From positions 1 through 25,993 of IMG/VR virus record IMGVR_UViG_3300005527_003054: a DNA stretch of 25,993 nt. One strand, 5' to 3'. Shown in pieces: positions 1-24,018 of this stretch (position 1 is the stretch's first letter; the number at the start of each line of letters is the position of its first letter). The stretch comes from a virus. The notes under the pieces are model-generated. The model saw only the letters and a program-made list of their open reading frames with translations. It ran no database searches and was not told the origin of the DNA. The translations under genes were made by a program, and so were the position numbers.

Positions 1-227
1 ATCCATGTGCCGCTAGTCTCGCTCGAAGATTTCGCCAGCTTCCACCCGCCGGTGACGCTCACGCCGCTTGCACCGCTTGAGCCTGCTTGCACCCATCCGC
101 TTGGGACTGTTGCCGCTGTCGTGTTGTTTCGCCCAGCGGAAATGAAAATCAAGTCCCCGGCTTGGTGGCTAGGGATTGCAATCGTTGTTGCTTGTGCTGA
201 GGATGATCCGATTGGACTAATTGCCAT
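1..227 (-). CDS. Phage virion-associated fibre-like protein, N-terminal part (cut by window edge)
   Basis: An open frame starts with ATG at 227 and runs without a stop off the left edge, so only the first 75 codons are visible. The protein begins MAISPIGSSSAQATTIAIP and is rich in Ser, Gly, Thr and Ala. The pattern of a short strand, then GDLIFISAGRN, then PSGW resembles N-terminal beta domains of phage tail or fibre-type proteins whose motif is GDLL...P.GW; that link is from memory and the specific function is inferred. The start codon overlaps the stop of the upstream gene by 11 nt, a typical coupled arrangement, and a GGTGA lies just before the ATG. No signal peptide or membrane segment is seen. 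It is the most downstream gene of the visible virion operon. Confidence 0.7.
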   Translation of the reverse strand, partial: MAISPIGSSSAQATTIAIPSHQAGDLIFISAGRNNTTAATVPSGWVQAGSSGASGVSVTGGWKLAKSSSETSGTW

Positions 228-780
228 TAATCACCAAGTCCGGATCGCCGTGGTTCCAAGCATCAATAGCCGCCTGAGTCGTGTTGTATCGGTCGATGTT
301 TTGTTGCGTCCACCCCGCCCGCTTTGCCGTCGCTCCGTTCATTACGTCGCGAATAACTCGGACCGAATGAGCCGACTGAGTACCATACCCATGATGGTCG
401 ACCCAGCGAACCGTTTTGAATCCCATCGCTCCGAGTTCCTGGGCTTGCAGAGGTGTCGCGTATTCATATTGGACCAAATCTTCGATCATGGTCAAAGCGG
501 TTTGCGACGAAAGGTCAGCCACTTCGGAAGGATTGCTAGGGTTGTCGACCCAACCCTTGATGTTCCAAATTGCTATGCGCTGTTCTTTCGGTAAGCTTGA
601 ATCGTAAGCATCGGCATTTACTTTGCCGTAAATCCCATTGTCGACAGCATACTTAATGATCCCACCGATCGGAACGTTGACCGGAATCGTAACCATCAGC
701 AGGTTGATCGCATCAGCCGCCGCTTGGTCGCTCAAGTTCACGTGCTGGGCTTCGTTCAGCTTTTCAATCATAAGTTCCAT
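217..780 (-). CDS. Hypothetical phage protein in virion operon
   Basis: 187 codons, ATG at 780 preceded by GAGGG at good spacing; a second in-frame ATG three codons later is less well placed. The N-terminal third is mixed helix with one moderately hydrophobic stretch (about residues 26-43), followed by a soluble acidic region. The C-terminal part has a His and Trp-rich segment (RWVDHHGYGTQSAH) and a conserved-looking tail with WTQQNIDRYN. I do not recognise the family. It overlaps the end of the CarF-like gene by 17 nt and the start of the fibre-like gene by 11 nt, so it is translated within the same late operon and is most likely a virion or assembly protein by position only. It ends with TAG. 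Confidence 0.65.
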   Translation of the reverse strand: MELMIEKLNEAQHVNLSDQAAADAINLLMVTIPVNVPIGGIIKYAVDNGIYGKVNADAYDSSLPKEQRIAIWNIKGWVDNPSNPSEVADLSSQTALTMIEDLVQYEYATPLQAQELGAMGFKTVRWVDHHGYGTQSAHSVRVIRDVMNGATAKRAGWTQQNIDRYNTTQAAIDAWNHGDPDLVINGN

Positions 781-1309
781 GATTTACCCTCGGTGGAATC
801 CAAAAAACCGCCAGCACAAAAAACTCAAGGACTCGCCAAAAAGAAACAGCGTCAAGCACCGGATTCAGGATCGGCGTCATCACGCAATACCGAACATGAA
901 ACGGATTTCTGTGATGAACAGAATGATGCTTCGGGCTTTGGAAGATGTACAGACGCTGCATCCAAACAACCAGCCAGCCGTTCTTTCCTTTGCTGTGCGC
1001 AAGTGCGTGAATCTGATTTGCCTGACTCAAAAACAGCATCGTAAGCCACCCGTCGCGCAGTGGTTCGAAAGCCAAACAGATCAGCATTGCCGTAAGGCTC
1101 GGAACGATCGTCGTATAGTTCCGCTCCCAGTATGAGCCCTTCAAGAAAGCGTACTGGTCCGCATGGTGAAGCTGGTTCGGACCACCGATCAGACGCCCGA
1201 TAAACGAGTCGCTTTGTGTGAGGTAGGTATCCTCCCACCAATGAAACAGACCTGCAATGAAGTCAGCAGCCAGCCATGAGGCAATGATGTGAATCGACAC
1301 ATTCACCAT
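764..1309 (-). CDS. CarF/Kua (TMEM189)-type lipid desaturase homologue
   Basis: 181 residues from the ATG at 1309, chosen because GGAAGG lies seven bases upstream; a longer frame from 1336 would overlap the upstream gene. The histidine layout matches the CarF/PEDS1 membrane desaturase family: DFIAGLFHWWEDTY with H23, HHAD with H48-H49, HALAH with H101 and H105, then PKHHSVHH (H128, H129, H132, H133), H138 and a C-terminal N..LD..SFWR.LE. In characterised members these His ligate two irons and the enzyme makes the vinyl-ether bond of plasmalogens. Hydrophobic segments lie around residues 5-22, 66-80, 87-100 and 160-173, consistent with an integral membrane protein. It is shorter than most cellular homologues but keeps the whole His set. 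Substrate is unknown; its place inside a phage late operon is unusual. Confidence 0.75.
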   Translation of the reverse strand: MVNVSIHIIASWLAADFIAGLFHWWEDTYLTQSDSFIGRLIGGPNQLHHADQYAFLKGSYWERNYTTIVPSLTAMLICLAFEPLRDGWLTMLFLSQANQIHALAHSKGKNGWLVVWMQRLYIFQSPKHHSVHHRNPFHVRYCVMTPILNPVLDAVSFWRVLEFFVLAVFWIPPRVNHGTYD

Positions 1310-1325
1310 AGCAACACCTTCCGCT

Positions 1326-1586
1326 TTACGCAGCATTCTTTTTGACTTGAGCTATCGAGATCGCTAGTTCGTGAAACTTCGCGTGTAGCAACTCTCGGTC
1401 TTCATCGCATTTCTGCTTTTCAGCCCTTGTCTCAACGGCAAGTTTTTCCAAGTTTTCCTGGGTCTTAGAATTGGCTCGCATTACATAAGTAAACAAAGTC
1501 GCGCAAACGGTCCCCAGCGTCCCGACGATCGCTATGGTTGCAGTCATCTGCGCTTCTTGGGAAAGTTGAGCCAAGTAAAAAATCAT
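1326..1586 (-). CDS. Small membrane protein with C-terminal coiled coil
   Basis: 86 residues. The ATG at 1586 overlaps the TGA of the upstream gene (ATGA) and has GACGAGG seven bases upstream, so it is preferred over the longer frame beginning at 1673. Residues about 14-38 form one transmembrane helix (TATIAIVGTLGTVCATLFTY); residues about 40-82 are a charged, heptad-like helix (ENLEKLAVETRAEKQ). A single N-terminal membrane anchor with a helical tail is common among phage lysis-cassette accessory proteins such as holin-like or i-spanin-like proteins, but no family can be named. Its neighbours are other short membrane or secreted proteins, which supports a possible lysis role by context only. 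Confidence 0.65.
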   Translation of the reverse strand: MIFYLAQLSQEAQMTATIAIVGTLGTVCATLFTYVMRANSKTQENLEKLAVETRAEKQKCDEDRELLHAKFHELAISIAQVKKNAA

Positions 1587-1879
1587 CGCATTGCCTCGTC
1601 GATTCTTGAAAAAAAAAGGTAGCCTTTGTAGGAGTATTGCTTGCCGTGACGCTCGATAACAAATTGAGGCCACGGCCCCTTGCCTGGATCTTTGCTTGTC
1701 GCAACCACCCAGCCGTCAGCCTCGAATTTAGGTTGTTCGTTCTGCTTCCAGTCGTTGCACTCTCGGTTGTCGACGCCGAACAAAACAATTTCGCGGCGTA
1801 GCTTTTCGTGCGAATGATTGCTGCATGTCAACAAAACAACTGTCACTAAAATCCGCAGTAATTGTTCGGTCATCATCAA
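1583..1879 (-). CDS. Small secreted or lipoprotein-like phage protein
   Basis: 98 residues. Translation probably starts at one of three consecutive ATGs at 1879-1871, with GGGAG upstream. The N-terminus has a hydrophobic core (LLRILVTVVLLTC) followed by Cys; the Cys context LLTC is close to a lipobox but has Thr where Gly, Ala or Ser is usual, so lipidation is uncertain. The remainder is a small soluble domain with VVATSKDPGKGPWPQFV and a conserved-looking HGKQYSYKGY segment. It overlaps the following membrane protein by 4 nt. Such paired small exported proteins can be lysis accessory factors, but I do not recognise the family and the role is inferred from position. Confidence 0.6.
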   Translation of the reverse strand: MMMTEQLLRILVTVVLLTCSNHSHEKLRREIVLFGVDNRECNDWKQNEQPKFEADGWVVATSKDPGKGPWPQFVIERHGKQYSYKGYLFFSRIDEAMR

Positions 1880-3439: not shown

Positions 3440-4363
3440 CTAAACAAAACTGAGTTGATCGTTGACGAGTGCGGCAACGATGTCTTGAGTCTTTGGAACA
3501 CCCATACCCCAAAACGGATCGAATCCAGGATCACCCTTGTCCTGGGTGTACTTCGCCAGAAAAGCCCGAACGGCTTCCACCCCGGTAAACTCTGCTGCGC
3601 CTTCGCGTCGCATTAGCTCAACAATCAGAGCAAACAAACCCGCCGCGAATGGGGTCGCCATGCTCGTACCGGACATCCCTCGAAACCCGTTGGTTGTCGA
3701 GCACGAAACGATATCCTGTCCTGGACAGCACATATCAAGCTCTCGCCCCCCTGAAGAGAACGAAGCTCGCTGACCGTCTTTTCGGTACGCACCAATGCAA
3801 AGCGATTCAGGATACTTCGCTGGGTAGCCGATTGTGTTTTGCCTTCCATTGAAACCTGAGTTGCCAGCAGCCGAGATAGTGATCACCCCCTTGCTCCAAG
3901 CGTACTCCATGGACTTCCGAGTAGGCTCGTAAGGACTGCTCGATCCTAGTGACAGCGAAAGGATATCTGCTCCATTGTCGACCGCATCTCGCACTCCCTG
4001 AGCTATCCCATCGGAGGATCCTTGTCCGCCATTTGAAAGCACCTTGATTGCCATCAACGACGCATCGGGAGCAACCCCGACTCCATCTCTGGCGAGCACG
4101 GTCCCTGCGCAATGATTGCCGTGACCGTTGCCGTCACTTATGCTTTCGCCTCGAATAAACGACTTTGAATAAACTGGTTTCGGAAGCAAGTCATGGGGAG
4201 TGTATCCAGTGTCTAGGACCGCCACGACGATACCCTTGCCAGTAACCCGCTTCCAGATTGGCTCGAAAATCGCTTTCGGAAGATGCCACAGATCTCCCGG
4301 CGCTGCGAACGTCTCAACATCCGAAACCAAGTCTGGTGGATATGATACAGGTGGCGAATTCAT
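3440..4363 (-). CDS. Subtilisin-like serine protease (peptidase family S8)
   Basis: 307 residues from ATG at 4363 (a GTG one codon upstream is also possible; GGGG precedes both). The S8 catalytic triad is complete: Asp51 in VAVLDTGY, His81 in GNGHGNHCAGT, and Ser in GMSGTSMATPFAAG near residue 235; the oxyanion Asn is in ISAAGNSG. There is no signal peptide and only about 40 residues before the catalytic core, so no classic propeptide. It lies directly after the gene next to the major capsid protein. Phage prohead proteases normally belong to other families (S14, S49, U9, U35-type), so a subtilase here is unusual; maturation of virion proteins or cleavage of host proteins are both possible. 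Family call is firm, target unknown. Confidence 0.9.
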   Translation of the reverse strand: MNSPPVSYPPDLVSDVETFAAPGDLWHLPKAIFEPIWKRVTGKGIVVAVLDTGYTPHDLLPKPVYSKSFIRGESISDGNGHGNHCAGTVLARDGVGVAPDASLMAIKVLSNGGQGSSDGIAQGVRDAVDNGADILSLSLGSSSPYEPTRKSMEYAWSKGVITISAAGNSGFNGRQNTIGYPAKYPESLCIGAYRKDGQRASFSSGGRELDMCCPGQDIVSCSTTNGFRGMSGTSMATPFAAGLFALIVELMRREGAAEFTGVEAVRAFLAKYTQDKGDPGFDPFWGMGVPKTQDIVAALVNDQLSFV

Positions 4364-4390
4364 CACTTGACCCCGAGCTCACTTGAAAGG

Positions 4391-5433: not shown

Positions 5434-6552
5434 TTAGGCGGTTTCGGTCACAGTCTGAGTGCAATAGCCACGGAAGTTTGCGCGACGATTGAAACAGACC
5501 ATTTGAAGCGAGTCATCCATGCAGCGAACGCGAACGTTGCTCATTTCTGGGTGCTGGAACGCCTTCCTCTTGCGCATCTGCCGACCTGCGGCGTAGTACG
5601 CTTTGAAAGTTGACCAGTTGACTCCGAGGACAATCCCGTCAGTTCGAGCATTGACGCTGTCGCTGCTGGTCCAAGCTGGAACCCAGTTCAACGGCACGCC
5701 ACGGATGTAAACCTGACCGCTGCGAGCAGCCATGTCGTCGCCAATGTTGTCGTTTCCAAGCTGAAGCATTCGCCGACCAGCCGCCAAGACGCTGTAAGTC
5801 GTCAAAAGCTCCCAGTCGCTTCGCTTCTGATCAACGATGTCTGGTCGCTGAACAGGTGGCTCGAACGAACACTTATCCATCGAGCTGATCGTCTTTTCGA
5901 CAAAATCGGCTCGAGTGATCGACGTGTAAGGGAACGTTCGGTTGCGCCATTGCGGATACTGGGTACACGAAATGCCACCAACGCCGACGCTTGACCATCC
6001 AACAGGCTCGGCTCCATTGAAGCCTTCAGTCGCGTTGTTCTCAGTCACGCTGTCGCTCGTGGAGGTGATCCACCAAAGCAACGACGAAACAATATTGGGG
6101 GTCTGAGTAGGACTCGATGGACCAGGACCGAACACCAAGTCTTCCATGCCAGTGTAGAACGACGTCATGAGGTCGCGTTCTTGATCCTCGATGTAGTCGT
6201 AAATCTGCCGACCGCCAGTGCGGAAGATCTCTTCGTCGATGTCGTAGTGGTAGTTGTTCGTGGTCAACGCCCACTTCAATTCACCTTGGTCGAGCGTGTT
6301 GACTCGAGTCGAAGAATCTCGGTGGTACAGACCAACAGACTGGAAGTTGTCTTGATATCCGACCTTTACCTTCCACCTGCACTCCGACGTGCTCATCGTG
6401 TCCTTCTTCAGATTTCCTGAAAAAAGACGCGATGCGTAATGGTACTTCTGCAACGTCAAAGACAAATCCTGCGCTGCAAGTCGGTCTTCACCCGCAAACT
6501 TCTGGTGGATGCTGTTTACAAAATCGTCAATCTGTTCAATGGACAAAGCCAT
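5434..6552 (-). CDS. Major capsid protein
   Basis: 372 residues, ATG at 6552 with GGAG about nine bases upstream. Position (terminase, portal, scaffold, this gene), size and composition fit an HK97-fold major capsid protein. Visible traits: helical N-terminal arm (MALSIEQIDDFVNSIHQKF), an E-loop-like Trp and Lys segment (CRWKVKVGYQDNF), a long helix around IYDYIEDQERDLMTSFYTGME, and a C-terminal P-domain with VYIRGVPLNWVPAW and GVNWSTFKAYYAAGRQMRKR. No cleavable delta domain is evident, consistent with the separate scaffold-like gene upstream. Flanking terminators imply strong, discrete expression. Identification rests mainly on context and general pattern rather than one diagnostic motif. 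Confidence 0.8.
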   Translation of the reverse strand: MALSIEQIDDFVNSIHQKFAGEDRLAAQDLSLTLQKYHYASRLFSGNLKKDTMSTSECRWKVKVGYQDNFQSVGLYHRDSSTRVNTLDQGELKWALTTNNYHYDIDEEIFRTGGRQIYDYIEDQERDLMTSFYTGMEDLVFGPGPSSPTQTPNIVSSLLWWITSTSDSVTENNATEGFNGAEPVGWSSVGVGGISCTQYPQWRNRTFPYTSITRADFVEKTISSMDKCSFEPPVQRPDIVDQKRSDWELLTTYSVLAAGRRMLQLGNDNIGDDMAARSGQVYIRGVPLNWVPAWTSSDSVNARTDGIVLGVNWSTFKAYYAAGRQMRKRKAFQHPEMSNVRVRCMDDSLQMVCFNRRANFRGYCTQTVTETA

Positions 6553-7501: not shown

Positions 7502-7817
7502 CGCCATATCCTCCATCCATATCCCTGAATCCGCGCATACGAAGGAACTCGTTACGTGCGCGACGACTTGTAAATTGAACTTGACCGCTGTCGCGAACAG
7601 CAGCTCCCTGGATGCAATGCTGCTTAATCAGTTTGCGAGTTTCGTCCACTTGGCTTTTCATTACCCCGCAACCCTCAGATACCAAGGGGTTGTGCTCGGT
7701 GTACGTGTTTGCCGCCATTGCCGGTCGCTCGAGCCAGTCGGCCTTACGAGGCACCAAGCGATCGAGCTCTGCCTCGGACACTTCCTTGCCTTTGTATTTG
7801 TGGACGATCTTGCTCAT
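7494..7817 (-). CDS. Small phage protein between portal and scaffold
   Basis: 107 residues. The ATG at 7817 overlaps the portal stop by one base (TAATG), and the stop overlaps the scaffold start by 8 nt. Starts MSKIVHKYKGKEVSEAELDRL and is soluble and basic; the second half has PLVSEGCGVMKSQVDETRKLI followed by GAAVRDSGQVQFTSRRARNEF and a Gly and Asp-rich end. From memory, short proteins with the phrases SEGCGVMKSQV and GAAVRDSGQVxFTSR occur near portal genes in other phages, with no known function. Translational coupling suggests expression in ratio with portal and scaffold. Confidence 0.7.
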   Translation of the reverse strand: MSKIVHKYKGKEVSEAELDRLVPRKADWLERPAMAANTYTEHNPLVSEGCGVMKSQVDETRKLIKQHCIQGAAVRDSGQVQFTSRRARNEFLRMRGFRDMDGGYGDE

Positions 7818-9607
7818 TACCCGACTCCTTGCAACATCGAGTTTCTTTGCTGTGAGTTGATCTGCGGCTGACCACCCATCAAGGTTTGGATCAGCGCATT
7901 ACTTCTAGCTGCTTCGGTGCCGCCACTGCTGACGTTCTTCCTGATCGTCTCCCTACTCGTGACAGGTGACTGCCTAACCGTGTTCTCGTCTCCACCAAGC
8001 ATCTCAGCCGGCGCGGCGAACGTGATGAACCGCTTAAACTCAGGTCTGTTTTTCAGTCTGGCAATTTCTTCGACAATGGCTTGCGCATCGATCGAGGCAC
8101 CCGAGGCTTGGAACATCGGCCAAAGCGGTGCGATCTCGCGGATCACCTGGAACAACTCCTGAAGCTTCTGCTCCGGAGTCTTGAAGATCATTGAGTATGG
8201 TTCGATCCTGAACTCGTAGTCGTCAAACTCACCTTGGCGGTAGTCTGGAGTCCAGTCAGAATTTACGTTGATGCCTGTGTTGCCGACTTCCATAGAGGTC
8301 TTCAACTCAAGTGTCTCATCCTCCCACATCAGCCTGCCGAGGTCCAAAATGCACTTGGAAGCGAACGAAACCACCGCCATTCGCATGTCAGCTACGTTTT
8401 TTGAGACGTTGCCATGGATCAACTCTTCCTGGCCGAGCGTGCTGGCCTGCTGACCAAGACCACCCATAGCCTGAAGATTTCCAGCAAAACGGTCGTATTC
8501 CGTTTGAATGAACGTCGCTAGCGCCATGTCTCGCTGATCAACGCCGCCGCTTTGGAACTGCTTGATTGACTCTGGGCTCTTGGCTCGATACCACCCGTTC
8601 CGCTCGGCAGTCCTGAGCCTTTCGGCGTCGTCTTCCATCCCTGGTGGGTAGACATTGACCACTCGATTGGCGTCCGAGTCAGCTTCCATGCGCCTGTGCA
8701 GACGATTCTGGAGATCGTGCATTCCCTTGAGGTTCATCGCGGGAGAGGTCGGGATGATATTGTCGGGGGTTTCGCCAAGCGACAAGAACTTGTACGGACC
8801 TGCTTGGGATCCCGTCCATGGTCTTTCGATGAGCGGTTCCATGTCTTGCTGGTCGCAAGGCAAGGTGGCAATTGTGTTGTTTTCGGCGATCCAGATGTCC
8901 TGGAGCCAGATCATGTCCTTGAGATCGTCGTCCTGAGCACTTCCCCAGTCCGAAGCCATGTCCCGAGTAGCGCCTACCGAATCTTGGTGCTCCCTGTTGG
9001 TCGGTCTGAGTTTGTCCTTGACCTTTTTGTCGTACCCAGGTTCGTCCATCACCTTTTCGAAGTCGGCGCGATAGCGATGTCCGCAATATCGCATCTTGCT
9101 TAACTCTTTGGCGGTCATATCGAGAATCAAATCGTCAAGCGACACTCGATTGAACCAAGGCTCACCTGGATCAAGCCAAACATCTTCCTCTGACGCGAGA
9201 AGTCCGTGAAAGCGAGTGTCCGTGTCACGCATCATGACAACGCCACACCCGAGACAGAAGAACGCATCAAGGACAATCATCCTGAACGTCTCGTCCAGAG
9301 CCATGTCGCTAATAAGCTTGGCGAGGTTGACTTCAAAACGCCTTGCGAACGGAAGCATGTCCATTCGTGGAGTCGAAACCAAAACGCTGGGATTGTTCGC
9401 AGCCAGAGCGACCGTGTAGATACGTGCCGTCTGGTTCATCAAGTTGACGAGAGTTTTGTTCTCTGCGCCTGATTCGTTGTACCAAGAGCCAACGTAATCC
9501 TTGATCAGCCTCTGCCGAACAAGACGAAAAGGCTCCAGAGCATCCCGCGATGAGCGGATTGCCTTGTAAAGCCGATCTCGTTTTTGCTGGTCTCTTAGAT
9601 CAAACAT
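7817..9607 (-). CDS. Portal protein
   Basis: 596 residues, a typical size for podovirus-like portals. Located after the terminase and before the scaffold and capsid genes. Features: charged helical N-terminus (RDQQKRDRLYKAIRSSRDALEPF), a segment of the type NLMNQTARIYTVALAANNPSVLV common in portals that report on virion membrane or stem helices, a middle region with LASEEDVWLDPGEPWFNR and GHRYRADFEK, and a C-terminal crown-like part with EEIARLKN. It forms the dodecameric channel at the capsid vertex in known phages. The start has no clear ribosome site; the 86 nt before it contain CTTAGTTAAG and no gene. Identification rests on context, size and overall pattern. Confidence 0.8.
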   Translation of the reverse strand: MFDLRDQQKRDRLYKAIRSSRDALEPFRLVRQRLIKDYVGSWYNESGAENKTLVNLMNQTARIYTVALAANNPSVLVSTPRMDMLPFARRFEVNLAKLISDMALDETFRMIVLDAFFCLGCGVVMMRDTDTRFHGLLASEEDVWLDPGEPWFNRVSLDDLILDMTAKELSKMRYCGHRYRADFEKVMDEPGYDKKVKDKLRPTNREHQDSVGATRDMASDWGSAQDDDLKDMIWLQDIWIAENNTIATLPCDQQDMEPLIERPWTGSQAGPYKFLSLGETPDNIIPTSPAMNLKGMHDLQNRLHRRMEADSDANRVVNVYPPGMEDDAERLRTAERNGWYRAKSPESIKQFQSGGVDQRDMALATFIQTEYDRFAGNLQAMGGLGQQASTLGQEELIHGNVSKNVADMRMAVVSFASKCILDLGRLMWEDETLELKTSMEVGNTGINVNSDWTPDYRQGEFDDYEFRIEPYSMIFKTPEQKLQELFQVIREIAPLWPMFQASGASIDAQAIVEEIARLKNRPEFKRFITFAAPAEMLGGDENTVRQSPVTSRETIRKNVSSGGTEAARSNALIQTLMGGQPQINSQQRNSMLQGVG

Positions 9608-10070: not shown

Positions 10071-11966
10071 TTATCGCTTCAAAACGTCGCGTATTGAGTA
10101 CATCGGACTGCCGATATCGACACTACGTCGTTCCTGGCGTTCCCGCCACAAGTAACTACCATACTCTGGAGTTTGTCCCGTTTCAACATCGCTGTCAATT
10201 TTTTTTCCAGGATTATCTGTAGAAAATACCAACCAAGCACCCGCAGCGGAGATTGCTCGATCGCCGTGATTCTTCTCTGTCGCACCTTTGTTCTTGGTCG
10301 GAGCGTGGATAATCCTTCCGTTTTCCCACTCGTACTCGCCGCACTCAACGAGCATTTCCTCGGACCTTGGAGTGTACTCTCCACTCTCCATCGCCAACGC
10401 AAACTGCTCAAACATATCCGCCTTGTCAGCGTCACGGCACGGGAACCCAGCCTTGCGACTCTTCGTTTGGGATCCGAGTTGATCGACGTCCCGATAGAAA
10501 ATGTTGCCGTAGTAGCAAACCTCACGCACCTCCTTGGCGAAACCTCCGGAGACACCCGAGTCTTCCCATCCGAGCAAGGCGTTTCGCATCCATAGGCACA
10601 ATCCGACTACGATGCGAGCAAACGGACGCGGCTCAAGGCCTTTGACCGTGTACTCAAGCACTTGCTCGCCTGTCCGATTGTCAATTCCCGATGCCACGGA
10701 GTTCGAGGCGAAGGCACCAACGCCGCCTGACGCGATGTCGCAAGCGATCGTGAATGGACCAAGTGTTGGTCTGTTGTCGATCCCTGGCTTGAACCAAAGC
10801 GACAAGGGACCATTCTCGTCGGGGACGAGACCTTTGAGCTCGAGCGTTTCGCTGTCGAACACCGGCTTGCCTCTCCAAACTGGCTTTTTGCAGTGCTCGC
10901 GTTTCATTCGGTCCAGCAGGTCCGTGGTGAACACCTTGCCGGCTGACCCCCTGGCGTCCATGTCCAACTCTCGAGCGATGTACCGCGGAGTAGACCCTGG
11001 GACCAAGCAATGGGAGTCGTACCAGGGAGATCTCACCTTACCTTCGATCTTGTGTCCCTTCCGCTCGATCGTCCGCAGTTCTCGTTCATGCGACTTGATG
11101 TACTTTTCGACTTCCTCTTGCTCGTCAGGGTTGATCGCTTTAACCACCCCATCTTGCTTGACGTAGGCTAATCTGGCGTGCTCTGGGTTGTCCTTCCAGT
11201 CGAGGGAATAGACTTTTGGGTTGTCCGTGTCAGTTGCCGACTCGTAAAACACTCCCGTATCGGCACCGAAGGTGGAGCAAAGCACGACGCAATTAGTCAC
11301 ATGCGCAACGCTGGACATGATTTTGTAGTCAATGCCGTTTGCGATGAACTCTTCGGATCCAACTTCGTCGAACGCGAACATTGTGGTCCGACCACCCCGA
11401 GCAACGTCACTCGTTGCAGCAAACCCAACCCATATCGAACCCGTAGTTGGCAAAAGAATCGTGTGGTCGTCGATATTCCGCTTGTACCCGTCGAGCATCC
11501 ACAACGGAAGCTTGTCAAGCATCGTGGATAACTTGTTCATTACCGCGGTTGGATCTTTTGAATCCATCATCTTTTCGTTCCGAGTCACCAAACCCGACGA
11601 AAAGCCTTTCTCGAACAAAGCTCGCCTGATCTGCGTCCCGAGGTAGACGTATGTCCCGCCTTGCGCTCGGCTTTTGGGGATCGTCACCGACACTGGATGC
11701 TCAGTGTCCATCGCCTCTGTGATCGCATCATCGATCGCCGTGATCACCTTTTCTTGGTGATTCCATGGCACAAACGGCTTCATCTTAACCTTGGCTCGCG
11801 GCTCATGCACCCACAGAGCGAACGCGAAGAAGAACAGCACGTCGGTTTCGCAAGCTTGCAGCAACGCGTCGCGAAACCGCTTGTCGGTCAAGGCGCGCTC
11901 CCTGCATCGGATTCGCCACTCCAGGTTTTCTACTGGATCTTTTGGTGCTAGGTCGTAGTAAGACAT
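10071..11966 (-). CDS. Terminase large subunit
   Basis: 631 residues. ATPase motor features: an adenine-region WNHQEKVI near residue 68, Walker A-like PKSRAQGGT (97-105), Walker B MFAFDEVG with Asp200-Glu201, and a coupling segment around VVLCSTFGAD. The C-terminal RNase H-like nuclease is indicated by FTIACDIASGGVGAFASNS (catalytic Asp) and by GWEDSGVSGGF and CRDADKADMF further on. It would cleave concatemers and package DNA through the portal encoded two genes downstream. The start lacks a strong ribosome site (GCGAAG), but the leader contains two hairpins. A TTGACA-type promoter lies 90 bases upstream. No small terminase is recognised nearby. Confidence 0.9.
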   Translation of the reverse strand: MSYYDLAPKDPVENLEWRIRCRERALTDKRFRDALLQACETDVLFFFAFALWVHEPRAKVKMKPFVPWNHQEKVITAIDDAITEAMDTEHPVSVTIPKSRAQGGTYVYLGTQIRRALFEKGFSSGLVTRNEKMMDSKDPTAVMNKLSTMLDKLPLWMLDGYKRNIDDHTILLPTTGSIWVGFAATSDVARGGRTTMFAFDEVGSEEFIANGIDYKIMSSVAHVTNCVVLCSTFGADTGVFYESATDTDNPKVYSLDWKDNPEHARLAYVKQDGVVKAINPDEQEEVEKYIKSHERELRTIERKGHKIEGKVRSPWYDSHCLVPGSTPRYIARELDMDARGSAGKVFTTDLLDRMKREHCKKPVWRGKPVFDSETLELKGLVPDENGPLSLWFKPGIDNRPTLGPFTIACDIASGGVGAFASNSVASGIDNRTGEQVLEYTVKGLEPRPFARIVVGLCLWMRNALLGWEDSGVSGGFAKEVREVCYYGNIFYRDVDQLGSQTKSRKAGFPCRDADKADMFEQFALAMESGEYTPRSEEMLVECGEYEWENGRIIHAPTKNKGATEKNHGDRAISAAGAWLVFSTDNPGKKIDSDVETGQTPEYGSYLWRERQERRSVDIGSPMYSIRDVLKR

Positions 11967-12637: not shown

Positions 12638-12682
12638 GCCGATGGTGTTTTAACGATGGTTTTCTTCGAAGGAGATATTTCG

Positions 12683-13291
12683 ATGACAGTAGCAGCGTAT
12701 GTTCGAGTAAGCACAGCTTCGCAGAATGAGGCTGGACAAAAGCAGGAGATCTTGAGGTGGCTTGTTGGCAACGGCATCAACCCCAACATCGTTATTTGGT
12801 ACATCGACAAGGAGAGTGGCGAAACACTTAAGCGTCCTGAGTTCGAAAGCATGCAGCGGGACATCTTCAACGGCGCAATCAAAACCGTTGTGGTCTACAA
12901 GCTCGATCGGCTCTCGAGATCGCTCAAGGATGGTGTTGATACCCTTTGTTCGTGGTGCCAGGGTGGTATCAGGGTGGTTTCAACGTCTCAACAGATCGAT
13001 TTTACTGGCGCAATGGGACAACTCGTCGCCGCAGTGTTATTCGCAGTTGCGCAGTTCGAAACTGAGACTCGAAGGGAGCGCCAAGCGGCTGGAATCGCCG
13101 TTGCGAAGGAAAAAGGCGTTTACCGAGGTCGCATTCGTGGCGCTACCAAGGCTGGCGTTAATCCAGCTCGCGCGGCTGAACTGCGAGCGATGGGTTTGAA
13201 ACACGCGGAAGTAGCGAAAACCATGGGTATCAGCGTGAGTACCGCGTTCCGATATGCGCAAGATGCTAAACTCGAAGCAGCAGGCAGGTAA
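12683..13291 (+). CDS. Small serine recombinase (resolvase/invertase type)
   Basis: 202 residues from the ATG at 12683, with GAAGGAG eight bases upstream; the frame extends upstream to 12656 but that start has no ribosome site. The catalytic N-domain is clear: AAYVRVSTASQ with Ser10 as nucleophile, YKLDRLSRSLKDG with active-site Arg residues, and the long E-helix region AVAQFETETRRERQAAGI. The C-terminal helix-turn-helix reads HAEVAKTMGISVSTAFRYA. Length matches resolvases and DNA invertases, not large phage integrases, so it would act on short inverted or direct sites. It is one of few plus-strand genes and has its own promoter. It may resolve phage multimers or invert a segment; candidate sites lie in the following intergenic region. 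Confidence 0.88.
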   Translation: MTVAAYVRVSTASQNEAGQKQEILRWLVGNGINPNIVIWYIDKESGETLKRPEFESMQRDIFNGAIKTVVVYKLDRLSRSLKDGVDTLCSWCQGGIRVVSTSQQIDFTGAMGQLVAAVLFAVAQFETETRRERQAAGIAVAKEKGVYRGRIRGATKAGVNPARAAELRAMGLKHAEVAKTMGISVSTAFRYAQDAKLEAAGR

Positions 13292-14361: not shown

Positions 14362-15216
14362 CTACTGCAATCGCTGCAATACCATCTTGCCCACAAGCTC
14401 CGCAACTTGCGGAACTACGGCGTTCCCAAGTCCTCTAAGTCGGTCCACCCTAGCGGGAATCCCATGAGCCACTCGACGAATATCGGGCTCAATTGCCCAG
14501 TTGCTTGCGAGTCCTCGTCTAAAATCCTCTTGCGTATCGCCACCAATCCGCAAGAGTTCCCCGCTTCGTTGTAGCCGTTCTTGGCAGGGGATATGCTTGT
14601 TGGAGTCGGCCACAATCGAACCCAGTCCGCTAGGTTGATTCCGTAATCGTTGCCGCTTTTGCGGACTATTCGCCCCGCTTCGTTTAGCGTTCCGCTTGTG
14701 AGGTTGTCTGGCATAACTGTTTTCGGGGTTGGAATGTATGGCAATGACGAACACCCTGTCCCTGATATGCGGGGCACCAACGTAGGCAGCCGGTATGCAA
14801 TGCCATTCAGCATCATACCCGATCTCGGCCAGCGTCCCGAGAACTCTGTCCAGCCCTCTAGTAAGCAACGCTGCCACGTTCTCCAAGACAACTGCTCTCG
14901 GTTGCAATTCTGAAACCAAGCGAATGGCCTCAAAGAACAATCCGCTTCGCTCTCCGTCAAGACCTGCCCCGAGTCCGGCATAGGAAATATCCTGGCAGGG
15001 AAAACCGCCTGCGATGACATCGACCCAATCAAGGTTTCGGGCTGAACACTCTCGGATATCTCTTTCGCGATGGACTGCCGGCCAATGCTTCGCGAGGACT
15101 TTTTGGGCATAATCGTTTATCTCCACTTGCCATTTGCATTCCATACCGCAACGCTCAAAGCCAAGATCGAACCCCCCAATGCCTGCGAATAGTGATCCAA
15201 AGGTTAGTTGCGTCAT
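14362..15216 (-). CDS. DNA (cytosine-5) methyltransferase
   Basis: 284 residues. All key motifs are in order: motif I SLFAGIGGFDLG (8-19), motif IV GGFPCQDIS with catalytic Cys74, motif VI LENV (111-114), motif VIII APHIRDRVFVIA, a short variable recognition region containing VADSNK, and motif X VDRLRGLGNAVVPQVAE near the C-terminus. It would methylate cytosine C5 in phage DNA, probably to evade restriction. No restriction partner is seen beside it. The short target-recognition region is typical of phage solo enzymes. It begins 3 bases after the previous gene's stop. A second 231-codon frame overlaps most of this gene (see separate entry). Confidence 0.92.
   Translation of the reverse strand: MTQLTFGSLFAGIGGFDLGFERCGMECKWQVEINDYAQKVLAKHWPAVHRERDIRECSARNLDWVDVIAGGFPCQDISYAGLGAGLDGERSGLFFEAIRLVSELQPRAVVLENVAALLTRGLDRVLGTLAEIGYDAEWHCIPAAYVGAPHIRDRVFVIAIHSNPENSYARQPHKRNAKRSGANSPQKRQRLRNQPSGLGSIVADSNKHIPCQERLQRSGELLRIGGDTQEDFRRGLASNWAIEPDIRRVAHGIPARVDRLRGLGNAVVPQVAELVGKMVLQRLQ
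14415..15110 (-). other. Long open frame overlapping the cytosine methyltransferase in +1 frame
   Basis: A 231-codon ATG-initiated frame lies wholly inside the methyltransferase gene, shifted by one base on the same strand. Its translation is Trp-rich and includes LSWRTWQRCLLEGWTEFSG, WPTPTS, and a C-terminal FVEWLMGFPLGWTDLE. From memory, proteins annotated in other phages carry these same phrases; WPTPTS is the shifted reading of VADSNK in the main frame and LSWRTWQ of the motif VI region, so those proteins may themselves be alternate readings of methyltransferase genes. Only about 1-2 in 100,000 random frames of this length would lack a stop, though main-frame codon bias raises that. No ribosome site stands out. 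Real protein or bias-driven artefact is undecided. Confidence 0.35.
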
Positions 15217-17416: not shown

Positions 17417-17418
17417 AG

Positions 17419-17487
17419 TTGCGGGTCTAGGAATCGCACCTAGCACTCGGAGCTTATGAGACTCCGATGGGCGCTAGCCCACCCGCA
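17419..17487 (-). tRNA. tRNA-Met (anticodon CAT), atypical
   Basis: 69 nt. Acceptor TGCGGGT / ACCCGCA (7 bp), discriminator A, anticodon stem GGAGT / GCTCC with loop CTCATAA (T33, anticodon CAT), T arm CTAGG-TGCGATT-CCTAG directly stacked on the acceptor, variable region of 5. The D arm is abnormal: GGGC-TAGC-GCCC with a 4-base loop and no GG, and the T loop has TGC instead of TTC, so D-loop/T-loop contact would be altered. No CCA is encoded. It could be a Met, initiator or Ile2 type. Confidence 0.75.
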
Positions 17488-20143: not shown

Positions 20144-20518
20144 TTATCGAAGCAAATCCAACCGTCCCTTGCCGAGGATCTCTTTGACGGTCGCCTCTTT
20201 GCCGCTTCGGTGGTCCTTAACCAAGCCGCGAGAAAAGTTGTAGGTGCGGACGATGATATGGTCGTGGATCGCTACGTCGCGTCGATCCTTGCGGACCTTT
20301 GCCTGTGCGTCGGCTTTGGCCTGGGCGATCCGCTTGTCCAGTTCCGCAAGAGCCATGCGGTAGGACGCTTCGCGTGTCCGGCAGTCGGCGTAAGCTGAAA
20401 GACCAGTCGCGTGATCGTGGATCCGACAAGCCGACTCGATCTTGTTGCGGTTCTGTCCACCTGGACCAGTTCCTCGCATGTACTCGATGGTCCGTCCGTT
20501 TTTGATTGATTTGGTCAT
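20144..20518 (-). CDS. GGQ-motif release-factor-domain protein
   Basis: 124 residues from the ATG at 20518, with GAAGGCG upstream; the longer frame has no ribosome site and reads as Arg-rich shadow. MRGTGPGGQNRNKIESACRI carries the GGQ motif (residues 20-22) of class I release factor domain III, and RTYNFSRGLVKDHR is the conserved second signature of the same domain (RTYN..N.VTDHR in RF1/RF2). There is no codon-recognition or anticodon-reading domain, so it is a stand-alone GGQ domain like ArfB or other rescue-type hydrolases, which release peptides from ribosomes. Lys-rich tail EATVKEILGKGRL fits. It may rescue stalled ribosomes or change termination during infection. It shares the window with the tRNA-like array; link is inference. 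Confidence 0.85.
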   Translation of the reverse strand: MTKSIKNGRTIEYMRGTGPGGQNRNKIESACRIHDHATGLSAYADCRTREASYRMALAELDKRIAQAKADAQAKVRKDRRDVAIHDHIIVRTYNFSRGLVKDHRSGKEATVKEILGKGRLDLLR

Positions 20519-20555
20519 AGCTATCGCCTTCTTGTGGCTTCTGCGCAAAAAACAA

Positions 20556-20867
20556 CTACCAAGCCATCGCCTCGAGAATCGTCTGGCGCATCTTCGCTCT
20601 CGTGATCCGCATCGTCGTGGCTCGAGCCTCTTCCAGACTTGCGCATTGCCAATCGTCGAGCGTGTACAACGCCTTGACCGCCTGAGCCGCATCTTCAGCA
20701 CGACCAAACGTCATTTCGCCGTAATACGCTCGCATTCTTCCAAAGTCCCACGCAATACGCCACCCAGGATCGCGACCACTTTCGCCCCAAGTCAACGAGC
20801 CTGGATCCTCGTCGAACGGCTTTTTTACGTCGTCGTAAACCGCTACCCAGCGACCAATCTCTGACAT
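20556..20867 (-). CDS. Hypothetical small phage protein
   Basis: 103 residues from the ATG at 20867, with GGAGA eight bases upstream. Residues include GRWVAVYDDVKKPFDEDPGS, then WGESGRDPGWRIAWDFGRMRAYYG, then a helical C-terminus LEEARATTMRITRAKM. Trp-rich and soluble. I do not recognise the family. It precedes the GGQ gene in the operon driven from 21.3 kb. Confidence 0.6.
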   Translation of the reverse strand: MSEIGRWVAVYDDVKKPFDEDPGSLTWGESGRDPGWRIAWDFGRMRAYYGEMTFGRAEDAAQAVKALYTLDDWQCASLEEARATTMRITRAKMRQTILEAMAW

Positions 20868-21330: not shown

Positions 21331-22755
21331 TTATTCAAACGGGAGCATGCCGCTGGTTTTGCCGACTACGTGAGCAATACGAGCCTTCGCAATTTCCAGA
21401 TACTCAGCCTCTTGCTCGATGCCGATAAAGCGAAAACCCTCGAGCATTGCAGCCTTGCCAGTCGAACCAGACCCCATGAACGGATCGAGTATCAAACCGC
21501 CAGGAGGAGTGACGAGCCTGCATAGGTATCGCATAAGCTCGGTCGGCTTTACAGTGGGGTGATGGTTCAAGGCGAGCCTTGCTTTGTTAAACGCCCCGCC
21601 TTCGCATTCGACAACATTGCCTCGCTTTGCCTCGGCTTGCGCTTGGCACGAACGAGCAGAAATTTTTCTATCTAACTTCTCGCACCCCTCGTTCCGATCC
21701 TTCTTGCTCGCCTTTGCGCAATAGAAGAATCGAGCTGCTGAACCTGAATCTCTATAGTCACACGTTTCCTGATCGTTGCCTTGTCCATAGCTAGTTGCCG
21801 TGTGATTAGCACCTCTCTTGGGGTTATTGGGATTCCCGTTTGCCCTAGCACTGTTGGACTCGGGAAACAACGCCGTTACTTCGCCGCTGCCGTCATGGAT
21901 GAAGTTGGCAGGCCATCGGCCCAGAGCCTCTGCTTTGGCTACCGATTGGCGTGATCGCTCGGCATTTGCTGCAACCGCCTCTGGGTCGCTCATCCACGGG
22001 CGCTCCCATCCACCTGTCATTTGCTGCCCAGCGGTTGCATGACCGCCACTCAGTTTGTCGTTCGTCCCCACCCTGCACCCATCCACGTTGATAGCCCCGG
22101 TCCCATGCTTGAGCACGTTCGCTGCTACCGTGTCAGCAAACGGTTTGCGAGCCAGCGTAATAGGCTCCAGTGCGGGTTTCAAGGCGGTTCCCCAGCCGGC
22201 CCATTGCCCAGCTTCGGGGGTTGCGGGAGCGGTCAACTGCTTCCATTTCGCGGATTCAATCGATTCGCTCCCCACAAGTTCGGTACCTCCACGCGCCGCA
22301 CGGCATCCACCGCGCACAAATTCGCCGGTACCAGCACGCTCCGCCCCCGCCGCCTTGTCGATCGCCTTCGATACATCCATCGACTTAGGGAATCCGCTTC
22401 CGTACACCCAGGCAATCATATCGCGTATCTCGAAGCCTGCAAATCGAATAGACATAGCCATCCAGTCCTGCGTTCGAGTCCCGGCAAACGCTAGTAAATG
22501 CCCACCGGGTTTGAGCACCCTAAAAACCTCCTTCCAGATGATAGGCTGCGGGACAAACGCATCCCATTTCTTGCCCATGAAACCGCTCCCTTCAACTTCA
22601 AAATAACCTTGCGACACCCAAGCCGCCATAACCTTAACAGGGTCCGGCGCCTTTCCTAGCCCATAAGGCGGATCCGTAACAATCGCATCGACCGAGCAAT
22701 CCGCAAGGGTCTTGAGTACGTCGAAGCAATCGCCGTGGTGTAATTCATATCGCAT
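21331..22755 (-). CDS. DNA adenine/cytosine-N4 methyltransferase 1 (DPPY type)
   Basis: 474 residues from the ATG at 22755 (GCAGGAC upstream), immediately after the previous gene's stop. The catalytic motif DPPYG is at 28-32 and the AdoMet-binding motif DPFMGSGSTG near 424-433, so the order is catalytic motif first (beta-class arrangement). Between them is a long low-similarity insert (Ser, Gly, Ala-rich, about residues 150-380) that should hold the target-recognition part. DPPY suggests N6-adenine methylation; site unknown. It ends with GKTSGMLPFE, close to the end of the other methyltransferase. No restriction enzyme is nearby. Confidence 0.9.
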   Translation of the reverse strand: MRYELHHGDCFDVLKTLADCSVDAIVTDPPYGLGKAPDPVKVMAAWVSQGYFEVEGSGFMGKKWDAFVPQPIIWKEVFRVLKPGGHLLAFAGTRTQDWMAMSIRFAGFEIRDMIAWVYGSGFPKSMDVSKAIDKAAGAERAGTGEFVRGGCRAARGGTELVGSESIESAKWKQLTAPATPEAGQWAGWGTALKPALEPITLARKPFADTVAANVLKHGTGAINVDGCRVGTNDKLSGGHATAGQQMTGGWERPWMSDPEAVAANAERSRQSVAKAEALGRWPANFIHDGSGEVTALFPESNSARANGNPNNPKRGANHTATSYGQGNDQETCDYRDSGSAARFFYCAKASKKDRNEGCEKLDRKISARSCQAQAEAKRGNVVECEGGAFNKARLALNHHPTVKPTELMRYLCRLVTPPGGLILDPFMGSGSTGKAAMLEGFRFIGIEQEAEYLEIAKARIAHVVGKTSGMLPFE

Positions 22756-22756
22756 T

Positions 22757-23017
22757 TCAGTCCTGCTTTCCCTTGCTCCACTCAACCCCAATTCTTGCCG
22801 CTCGCATCACCAACTCCTCGTTGGCTCCTTTGGCAAGGTAATCCATCACCGCGCAAATCAAATACTGCTCCGCATCCTCCAGCTTCTCACCAGCCTTGAG
22901 ACCCTTCGGATCGTGATCCATCATCCCGCTAAGACGATAGCGGTTCAATCGCCGCTCAGGAACCCTGTCAGCGTAAATCTGATACCAACGTCGCTTTACC
23001 TCAACACCACTGTCCAT
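22757..23017 (-). CDS. Small hypothetical protein between two methyltransferases
   Basis: 86 residues, ATG at 23017 with GGTGG close upstream; eight bases after the upstream methyltransferase stop and one base before the next start. Helical and charged: RRWYQIYADRVPERRLNRYRLSGMMDHDPKGL, then EDAEQYLICAVMDYLAKGANEELVMRAARIG. Its tight placement between two methyltransferase genes suggests it works with them or simply travels in the operon. No known motif. Confidence 0.65.
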   Translation of the reverse strand: MDSGVEVKRRWYQIYADRVPERRLNRYRLSGMMDHDPKGLKAGEKLEDAEQYLICAVMDYLAKGANEELVMRAARIGVEWSKGKQD

Positions 23018-23025
23018 GAACCCAC

Positions 23026-24018
23026 CTATTGAAACAAAAGTCCGCTGGATTGCTTTACTGCTGCATCAATTCTGGTTTCAGCCAGCTTGATGTACGCAGC
23101 GTTTAACTCAATGCCGACGTACCTTCTGCCGTTGAGGATAGCAACCTCGCCTGTTGTTCCGCTGCCGTTGAAGGGATCGAGAACCACACCGCCCTTTCGA
23201 GAGCCGGCCAGAACGCAAGGCTCGATCAACGCAGGCGGAAATGTGGCAAAGTGAGCACCCTTGTACGGCTTGGTTGTAATCGTCCAGACCGAACGGCGAT
23301 TGCGTGTAGCTTTCACCAAGTATGACGGCGCGTCGCTTCGCTCGTTTCCTGTAGGCTGCTCGCTTCGACCAACTTTTTTCTTGCCGTTAAAATTGCCTGT
23401 TTTTCCCGCGTACACTGATGGCTCCTGCATAGCCTCGCTGTCGAAGTAGTACCTTGCCGACTTGCTCAGCAAAAAAACGTACTCATGCGCCTTGGTACAG
23501 CGATCCGTAACGCTCTCGGGCATCGGGTTTGGCTTGTGCCAAATGATGTCCTGCCGCAGATACCAGCCATCAGCGCGTAGGGCGAAGGCCAGCATCCACG
23601 GAATGCCAATCAAGTCTTTTGGTTTTATGTCGCCATATTCCTCTGTCGGTATTCGCCAAAAAAAGTTCGTCCCACCACCCTTCCCCCAGCGAATCTTTGT
23701 GCGAATGGGAGGCATCTCCTGTTTAGCACCAACGCCGGGGCTTTCTTTCTTTCCGCTTCGCTGCATGGACGCATAGCTATCCCCAATGTTTAGCCACAGC
23801 GTTCCGTCGTCTTTCAAAAGCCGCTTGACTTCGCGGAATACCTCGACCATTCGAGCAACGTATTCCTCCGGCGTAGACTCAAGCCCTATTTGTCCGTCCA
23901 CTCCGTAATCGCGCAAACCAAAATACGGAGGCGACGTTACGCAACAATCAACCGTCCCTGGCTCCATCGATCGAAGCACAGGCAGACAATCACCGCAATG
24001 CAATGTGTAAGGTTTCAT
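23026..24018 (-). CDS. DNA methyltransferase 2 (SPPY type)
   Basis: 330 residues. Catalytic motif TSPPY at 28-32 and AdoMet motif DPFNGSGTTG at 281-290, again with the catalytic motif first. SPPY is typical of N4-cytosine methyltransferases; some N6-adenine enzymes carry related forms, so base specificity stays open. Middle part has IIWHKPNPMPESV, and PYKGAHFATFPPAL, both typical for this class. The ATG lies six bases after the -10 box of its promoter, so the mRNA may begin at the start codon itself. Ends VKQSSGLLFQ, like the other methyltransferase's tail. Confidence 0.9.
   Translation of the reverse strand: MKPYTLHCGDCLPVLRSMEPGTVDCCVTSPPYFGLRDYGVDGQIGLESTPEEYVARMVEVFREVKRLLKDDGTLWLNIGDSYASMQRSGKKESPGVGAKQEMPPIRTKIRWGKGGGTNFFWRIPTEEYGDIKPKDLIGIPWMLAFALRADGWYLRQDIIWHKPNPMPESVTDRCTKAHEYVFLLSKSARYYFDSEAMQEPSVYAGKTGNFNGKKKVGRSEQPTGNERSDAPSYLVKATRNRRSVWTITTKPYKGAHFATFPPALIEPCVLAGSRKGGVVLDPFNGSGTTGEVAILNGRRYVGIELNAAYIKLAETRIDAAVKQSSGLLFQ

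Follow-up and report, generated by a model that had tools for sequence, protein, structure and literature searches.

The window, by which we mean the whole stretch of 25,993 bases of a virus record analyzed here, encodes a 181-residue protein that, judged from its sequence, is a genuine member of the lipid desaturase family PF10520, and its gene is by the same measure an accessory gene that recurs in uncultured tailed phages; desaturases of other types have already been reported in phages (PMC7300359, PMC7678222). On balance, we consider it probable that this phage accessory gene (a moron or auxiliary metabolic gene, AMG) specifies a di-iron membrane enzyme that belongs to the PF10520 superfamily, depends on O2 and would desaturate, or possibly hydroxylate, host phospholipid chains late in infection. 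This reading draws on the family match, the complete His/Asp set, the membrane segments, purifying selection and an optional, fixed slot between two late genes, along with the recurrence of the gene in tailed phages that have unrelated head genes.

The initial annotation had described a membrane protein of this size at positions 764–1309, and the corresponding open reading frame (ORF) is indeed there, on the minus strand; an in-frame ATG further upstream, at 1336, would give a 190-residue alternative. The HMM comparison that it had suggested as a check matched Lipid_desat (PF10520, Pfam) with an E value of 1.7e-34 and 119.8 bits against a gathering cut-off of 26.4, the alignment spanning profile positions 1–173 of 175, which for this sequence is far above chance level. 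The second Pfam match, FA_hydroxylase (PF04116), reached 2.2e-5 and 25.3 bits, below its cut-off of 31. The protein contains three clear hydrophobic stretches. Searches returned no meaningful match among PHROGs profiles, no match among PLSDB plasmids and only a chance-level match among PDB sequences. An AlphaFold2 model built from an alignment of 30 relatives (pLDDT 84, pTM 0.81) confidently predicts a helical membrane protein, for which Foldseek found nothing significant in the PDB. With a second structural aligner, the top match was the di-metal yeast fatty-acid 2-hydroxylase Scs7p (Z scores of 6.9 and 6.8, 145 residues), the next unrelated entry scoring 2.2; according to the aligner's own guidance, a Z score below about 13 is not proof alone for helical proteins, and the 6.9 of Scs7p lies below this safe level. 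A viral structure library yielded two significant matches, including a giant-virus (Harvfovirus) 'Lipid desaturase domain' protein.

Eight histidines of the window protein (H23, H48, H49, H101, H105, H129, H132 and H133) correspond, in the same order, to mouse PEDS1 H96, H121, H122, H187, H191, H215, H218 and H219, and D27 corresponds to D100, all of which are essential in mouse PEDS1 and CarF (PMC8960569). These residues are kept across 30 aligned relatives (25 phage and 5 bacterial), except in L004 (8001–8543, contig G202), a 92% identical relative in which Asn takes the place of the essential H215 (KHNAVHH). This replacement is either a natural loss or a sequencing error. Pairwise dN/dS values among close relatives are about 0.035–0.2, indicating that the protein is under purifying selection. 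The whole His set initially attributed to the protein thus comprises the eight essential histidines, accompanied by D100, but not a ninth, PEDS1-specific histidine (H131), which is replaced by G58.

Terminase, portal, capsid and subtilase genes lie upstream on the same strand (Table 1), which places the desaturase gene within the virion-gene region of a phage; this position suggests late expression. Neither the capsid protein nor the portal of the window has a relative among isolated phages. The initial annotation was right to see a lipid-desaturase-domain membrane protein with a catalytic His set in a phage structural-gene region. Its description of the gene as lying between lysis-like and virion genes holds for the virion genes and only weakly for the lysis-like ones: the upstream neighbors are a one-TM coiled-coil protein and, next to it, a degenerate thioredoxin-like protein, and the downstream neighbor belongs to no known family.

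Table 1. Coordinates of the desaturase gene, its neighbors and the upstream virion genes in the window
Feature	Position	Strand	Evidence and remarks
Lipid-desaturase-domain protein (PF10520)	764..1309	minus	Pfam 1.7e-34; 8 His + D100; dN/dS; AlphaFold2 pLDDT 84
One-TM coiled-coil protein	1326..1586	minus	Directly upstream of desaturase; hydrophobic residues 16-32; same position in relatives
Thioredoxin-like protein, N-terminal hydrophobic segment, CxxC lost	1583..1879	minus	Aligned with CxxC-bearing relatives
'SDQAAADAIN' protein	217..780	minus	No known family; downstream neighbor of desaturase in relatives
Subtilase (S8 peptidase)	3440..4366	minus	PF00082 8.6e-48; upstream of cassette
Major capsid protein	5434..6552	minus	NCBIfam capsid_maj_Podo 4.6e-19, 68.8 bits (cut-off 80)
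Portal protein	7817..9607	minus	SU10_portal 2e-6; PHROG portal 3e-5
Terminase large subunit	10071..11966	minus	PHROG terminase 3.4e-9; annotated TerL matches in isolated phages

The one-TM frame was listed as 1326–1673, with a probable start (MIFYLAQ) at 1586; profile searches gave no significant family match for its product, which is holin- or spanin-like only in outline. On the other side, the first 17 bases of the SDQAAADAIN gene are also the last 17 of the desaturase gene. The thioredoxin-like protein lacks CxxC in the window and in L014, most relatives keep the motif, and the L004 copy matches a PHROG thioredoxin domain (7e-4). Upstream of the cassette, the subtilase of the window is matched in position by a papain-like peptidase in L034 (4540–5367; PF00112, 3.3e-5) and, by eye, in L090 (3422–4252), a possible functional swap. 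Elsewhere, the window carries three DNA methyltransferases (14362–15216, 21331–22791 and 23026–24018; one C5-cytosine and two N6/N4), a tRNA-Met gene (CAT anticodon; 17418–17487, minus strand) and a serine-recombinase (Resolvase) frame on the plus strand, opposite the late genes (12656–13291). The ORF scan also detected an RF-1 (peptide release factor) domain; by eye, it corresponds to 20144–20707, where a GGQ motif would fit a release-factor-like or ribosome-rescue-like protein encoded by the phage. As to the host, Planctomycetota is only a guess, prompted by the appearance of the secreted proteins.

Within the window's group, the cassette runs in the order thioredoxin-like gene, one-TM coiled-coil gene, desaturase gene and SDQAAADAIN gene, after which tail/lectin-like proteins follow in relatives; the one-TM gene is missing from some of them, e.g., L004 and L005. 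The cassette occurs both with head genes like those of the window and with head genes unlike them. For example, it sits between head and tail genes in the 60-kb phage G202, which has its own terminase, portal, capsid and tail tube. The desaturase gene is absent from L090, L113, L121, L146, L160 and L168, in which the one-TM gene abuts the gene at the SDQAAADAIN position. Among cassettes located through the thioredoxin-like gene by a single-protein scan, the desaturase was present in 27 of 29 informative near cassettes and in 0 of 17 distant ones; the thioredoxin-like gene often occurs where the desaturase is missing and does not track it. When the one-TM gene was used for a scan, only two near-identical contigs matched. 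Presence or absence in a fixed slot is the behavior of a moron or accessory gene, not of a structural gene. As a separate observation, G202 has GTP cyclohydrolase, QueE-like and QueD-like genes (L105 7787–9421), as well as a queuine tRNA-ribosyltransferase match, which suggests 7-deazaguanine modification of DNA.

An alignment-based scan detected relatives of the desaturase on 53 viral contigs, and further scans added five, seven and four, bringing our tally to at least 69 IMG/VR contigs. One isolated phage, Erythrobacter phage vB_EliS-L02, encodes a relative (UIS25202.1; 37% identity) annotated as 'hypothetical protein' between PhoH and portal; its genome paper mentions no desaturase. This PhoH–desaturase–portal order recurs in four related contigs and is independent of the window's cassette. 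Given these occurrences beside virion genes, the initial statement that such enzymes are not expected in phage late regions was too strong. In the open-access literature that we searched, we came across no account of the PF10520 family in tailed phages; one may exist elsewhere. On the cellular side, the family was found in 2/79 genomes of a Chlamydiae-bin group, 8/59 of a cyanobacterial group and 1/61 of a Bacteroidota group, counts that include the starting genome of each group. The nearest bacterial members found sit, from inspection of the ORFs by eye, among ordinary cellular genes in their bins.

In a 43-protein tree, the phage proteins grouped with proteins from Bacteroidota, Chlamydiae and cyanobacterial-lineage bins in a single clade (N-type; 100/99), outside which lie human PEDS1 and Arabidopsis FAD4; within it, a subclade of 26 phage proteins includes that of the window (99/94). 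The human PEDS1 sequence used in the tree and alignment is the one that we take to be correct, and its His, Asp and Phe residues stand where published work places them; the Arabidopsis FAD4 sequence is presumed only, and its branch is long. Every protein in the window's clade has Asn at the position of mouse PEDS1 F118, whereas the H131 position varies within it, with mostly Gly, His in L089, and Asn or Ser in others. The 595-kb uncultured phage LR756511.1 encodes a distant lipid-desaturase-like protein (approximately 54612–55070; L102 3983–4441) that retains F118, carries a His where PEDS1 has H131 and branches apart from the N-type clade; at these two positions, it is nearer to PEDS1 than the window protein is.

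These features bear directly on the CarF/plasmanylethanolamine-desaturase label of the initial annotation, according to which the enzyme would make host plasmalogens and affect oxidative-stress signaling. A true CarF/PEDS1 enzyme would account for the common Pfam family, for the eight essential His and D100, and for the fact that the CarF equivalog model NF045946 is the only NCBIfam match of the window protein. That match scored 73 bits, with the cut-off set at 500; since this threshold is strict, the shortfall alone would not settle the identity. However, the window protein has Gly (G58) at the position of mouse H131 (CarF H113) and Asn at that of F118. H131 is present in the homologs shown to replace CarF, and plant and alphaproteobacterial homologs without it fail to do so (PMC9131029, PMC8960569), while mutation of F118 leaves PEDS1 with ~6% of its activity (PMC8960569). 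Lacking both residues, the window protein would not be expected to form the vinyl ether of plasmalogens. Considering also its separate clade, we find this identity quite improbable: the protein is not diagnosable as CarF/PEDS1, and neither the label nor the proposed ether-lipid and oxidative-stress role is supported. An FAD4-like enzyme, introducing a trans, delta-3 double bond into phosphatidylglycerol with help from a neighboring thioredoxin-fold partner, would agree with the common Pfam family and with the lack of H131 in both proteins. Moreover, the thioredoxin-like gene near the desaturase recalls the pairing of FAD4 with PRXQ, which enhances the activity of the plant enzyme (PMC12456178). 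FAD4, however, keeps F118 and lies outside the window's clade. The idea of the thioredoxin-like neighbor as a dedicated redox partner is itself weakened by the loss of CxxC in the window, seen also in the L014 copy, and by how common that gene is without the desaturase; its N-terminal hydrophobic segment may, in addition, place the protein outside the cytoplasm. An FAD4-like activity is hence unlikely.

The nature of the reaction was weighed on similar grounds. Were the protein not a desaturase but a lipid hydroxylase, this would fit the FA_hydroxylase match, second in Pfam and below its cut-off, and Scs7p as the top structural match, but the di-metal fold is common to both enzyme types, so that the latter does not separate them. 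As the PF10520 match is much stronger and the characterized members of that family are desaturases, we regard a hydroxylase as distinctly unlikely. A non-catalytic membrane protein, acting for instance by perturbing the membrane during lysis or in superinfection exclusion, is highly improbable: L004 lacks one essential His with the rest of the protein kept, and the desaturase gene adjoins that of a one-TM protein, but few positions of the alignment are as strongly conserved as the catalytic residues.

In the PF10520 family, eight histidines hold two irons, which, with O2 and electrons, strip a lipid chain of two hydrogens. From this chemistry, desaturation of a host phospholipid chain in late infection is the most likely function of the window protein. 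Its eight His would bind two metal ions, and the enzyme would draw on O2 and on electrons from the host to introduce a double bond or, less likely, a hydroxyl group into an acyl chain of a phospholipid of the host. The substrate would be located in the inner membrane, and its conversion may alter membrane properties during virion assembly and cell lysis. Among the scanned ORFs of the window and in the 60-kb relative, we recognized neither a ferredoxin nor a cytochrome b5 nor any other lipid enzyme. Against the desaturase reading stand the Asn at an essential His position in L004, the lack of a recognized electron donor or further lipid enzyme in the ORFs scanned and the Scs7p Z score below the safe level. 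More tentatively, and with doubts that outweigh our confidence, the window protein might belong to a third branch of the PEDS1/FAD4 family, largely phage-borne, with its own double-bond or hydroxyl position, that remodels host phospholipids at virion assembly or lysis.

Phage enzymes acting on membrane lipids are a poorly characterized class, and the desaturase gene described here is recurrent, under purifying selection, small and testable in laboratory strains. An activity of this kind would widen to tailed phages a family characterized in animals, plants and myxobacteria, and the relative in the isolated phage vB_EliS-L02 currently has no annotation beyond 'hypothetical protein'. Taken together, cassettes that have the desaturase and cassettes that lack it provide a natural set for asking how a phage benefits from a change in host lipids.

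Compared with known systems, the window protein resembles CarF/TMEM189/PEDS1 in its PF10520 domain, eight essential His and D100, and differs from it in the Gly at H131, the Asn at F118, its own clade and the score of 73 against 500 bits. It shares with plant FAD4, the delta-3-trans desaturase of plastid phosphatidylglycerol, the PF10520 domain, the eight His, D100 and the absence of H131, whereas F118 is kept in FAD4 (Asn in the window) and FAD4, as represented by the presumed sequence, branches separately. The likeness to Scs7p and PF04116 consists of the fold (Z 6.9 over 145 residues) and a weak Pfam similarity, with PF10520 matching the window protein far better. Like the phage AMG desaturases for which a role in altering host membranes has been proposed (PMC7300359, PMC7678222), the window protein is a virus-encoded membrane-lipid desaturase candidate; those enzymes are set apart by their descriptions, as they are of the fatty-acid/acyl-CoA type and not PF10520. 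Closer parallels are the virus-encoded PF10520-like proteins of Harvfovirus, with its lipid desaturase domain, and of the huge phage LR756511, the latter differing from the window protein in keeping F118 and His at position 131 and in lying outside the N-type clade.
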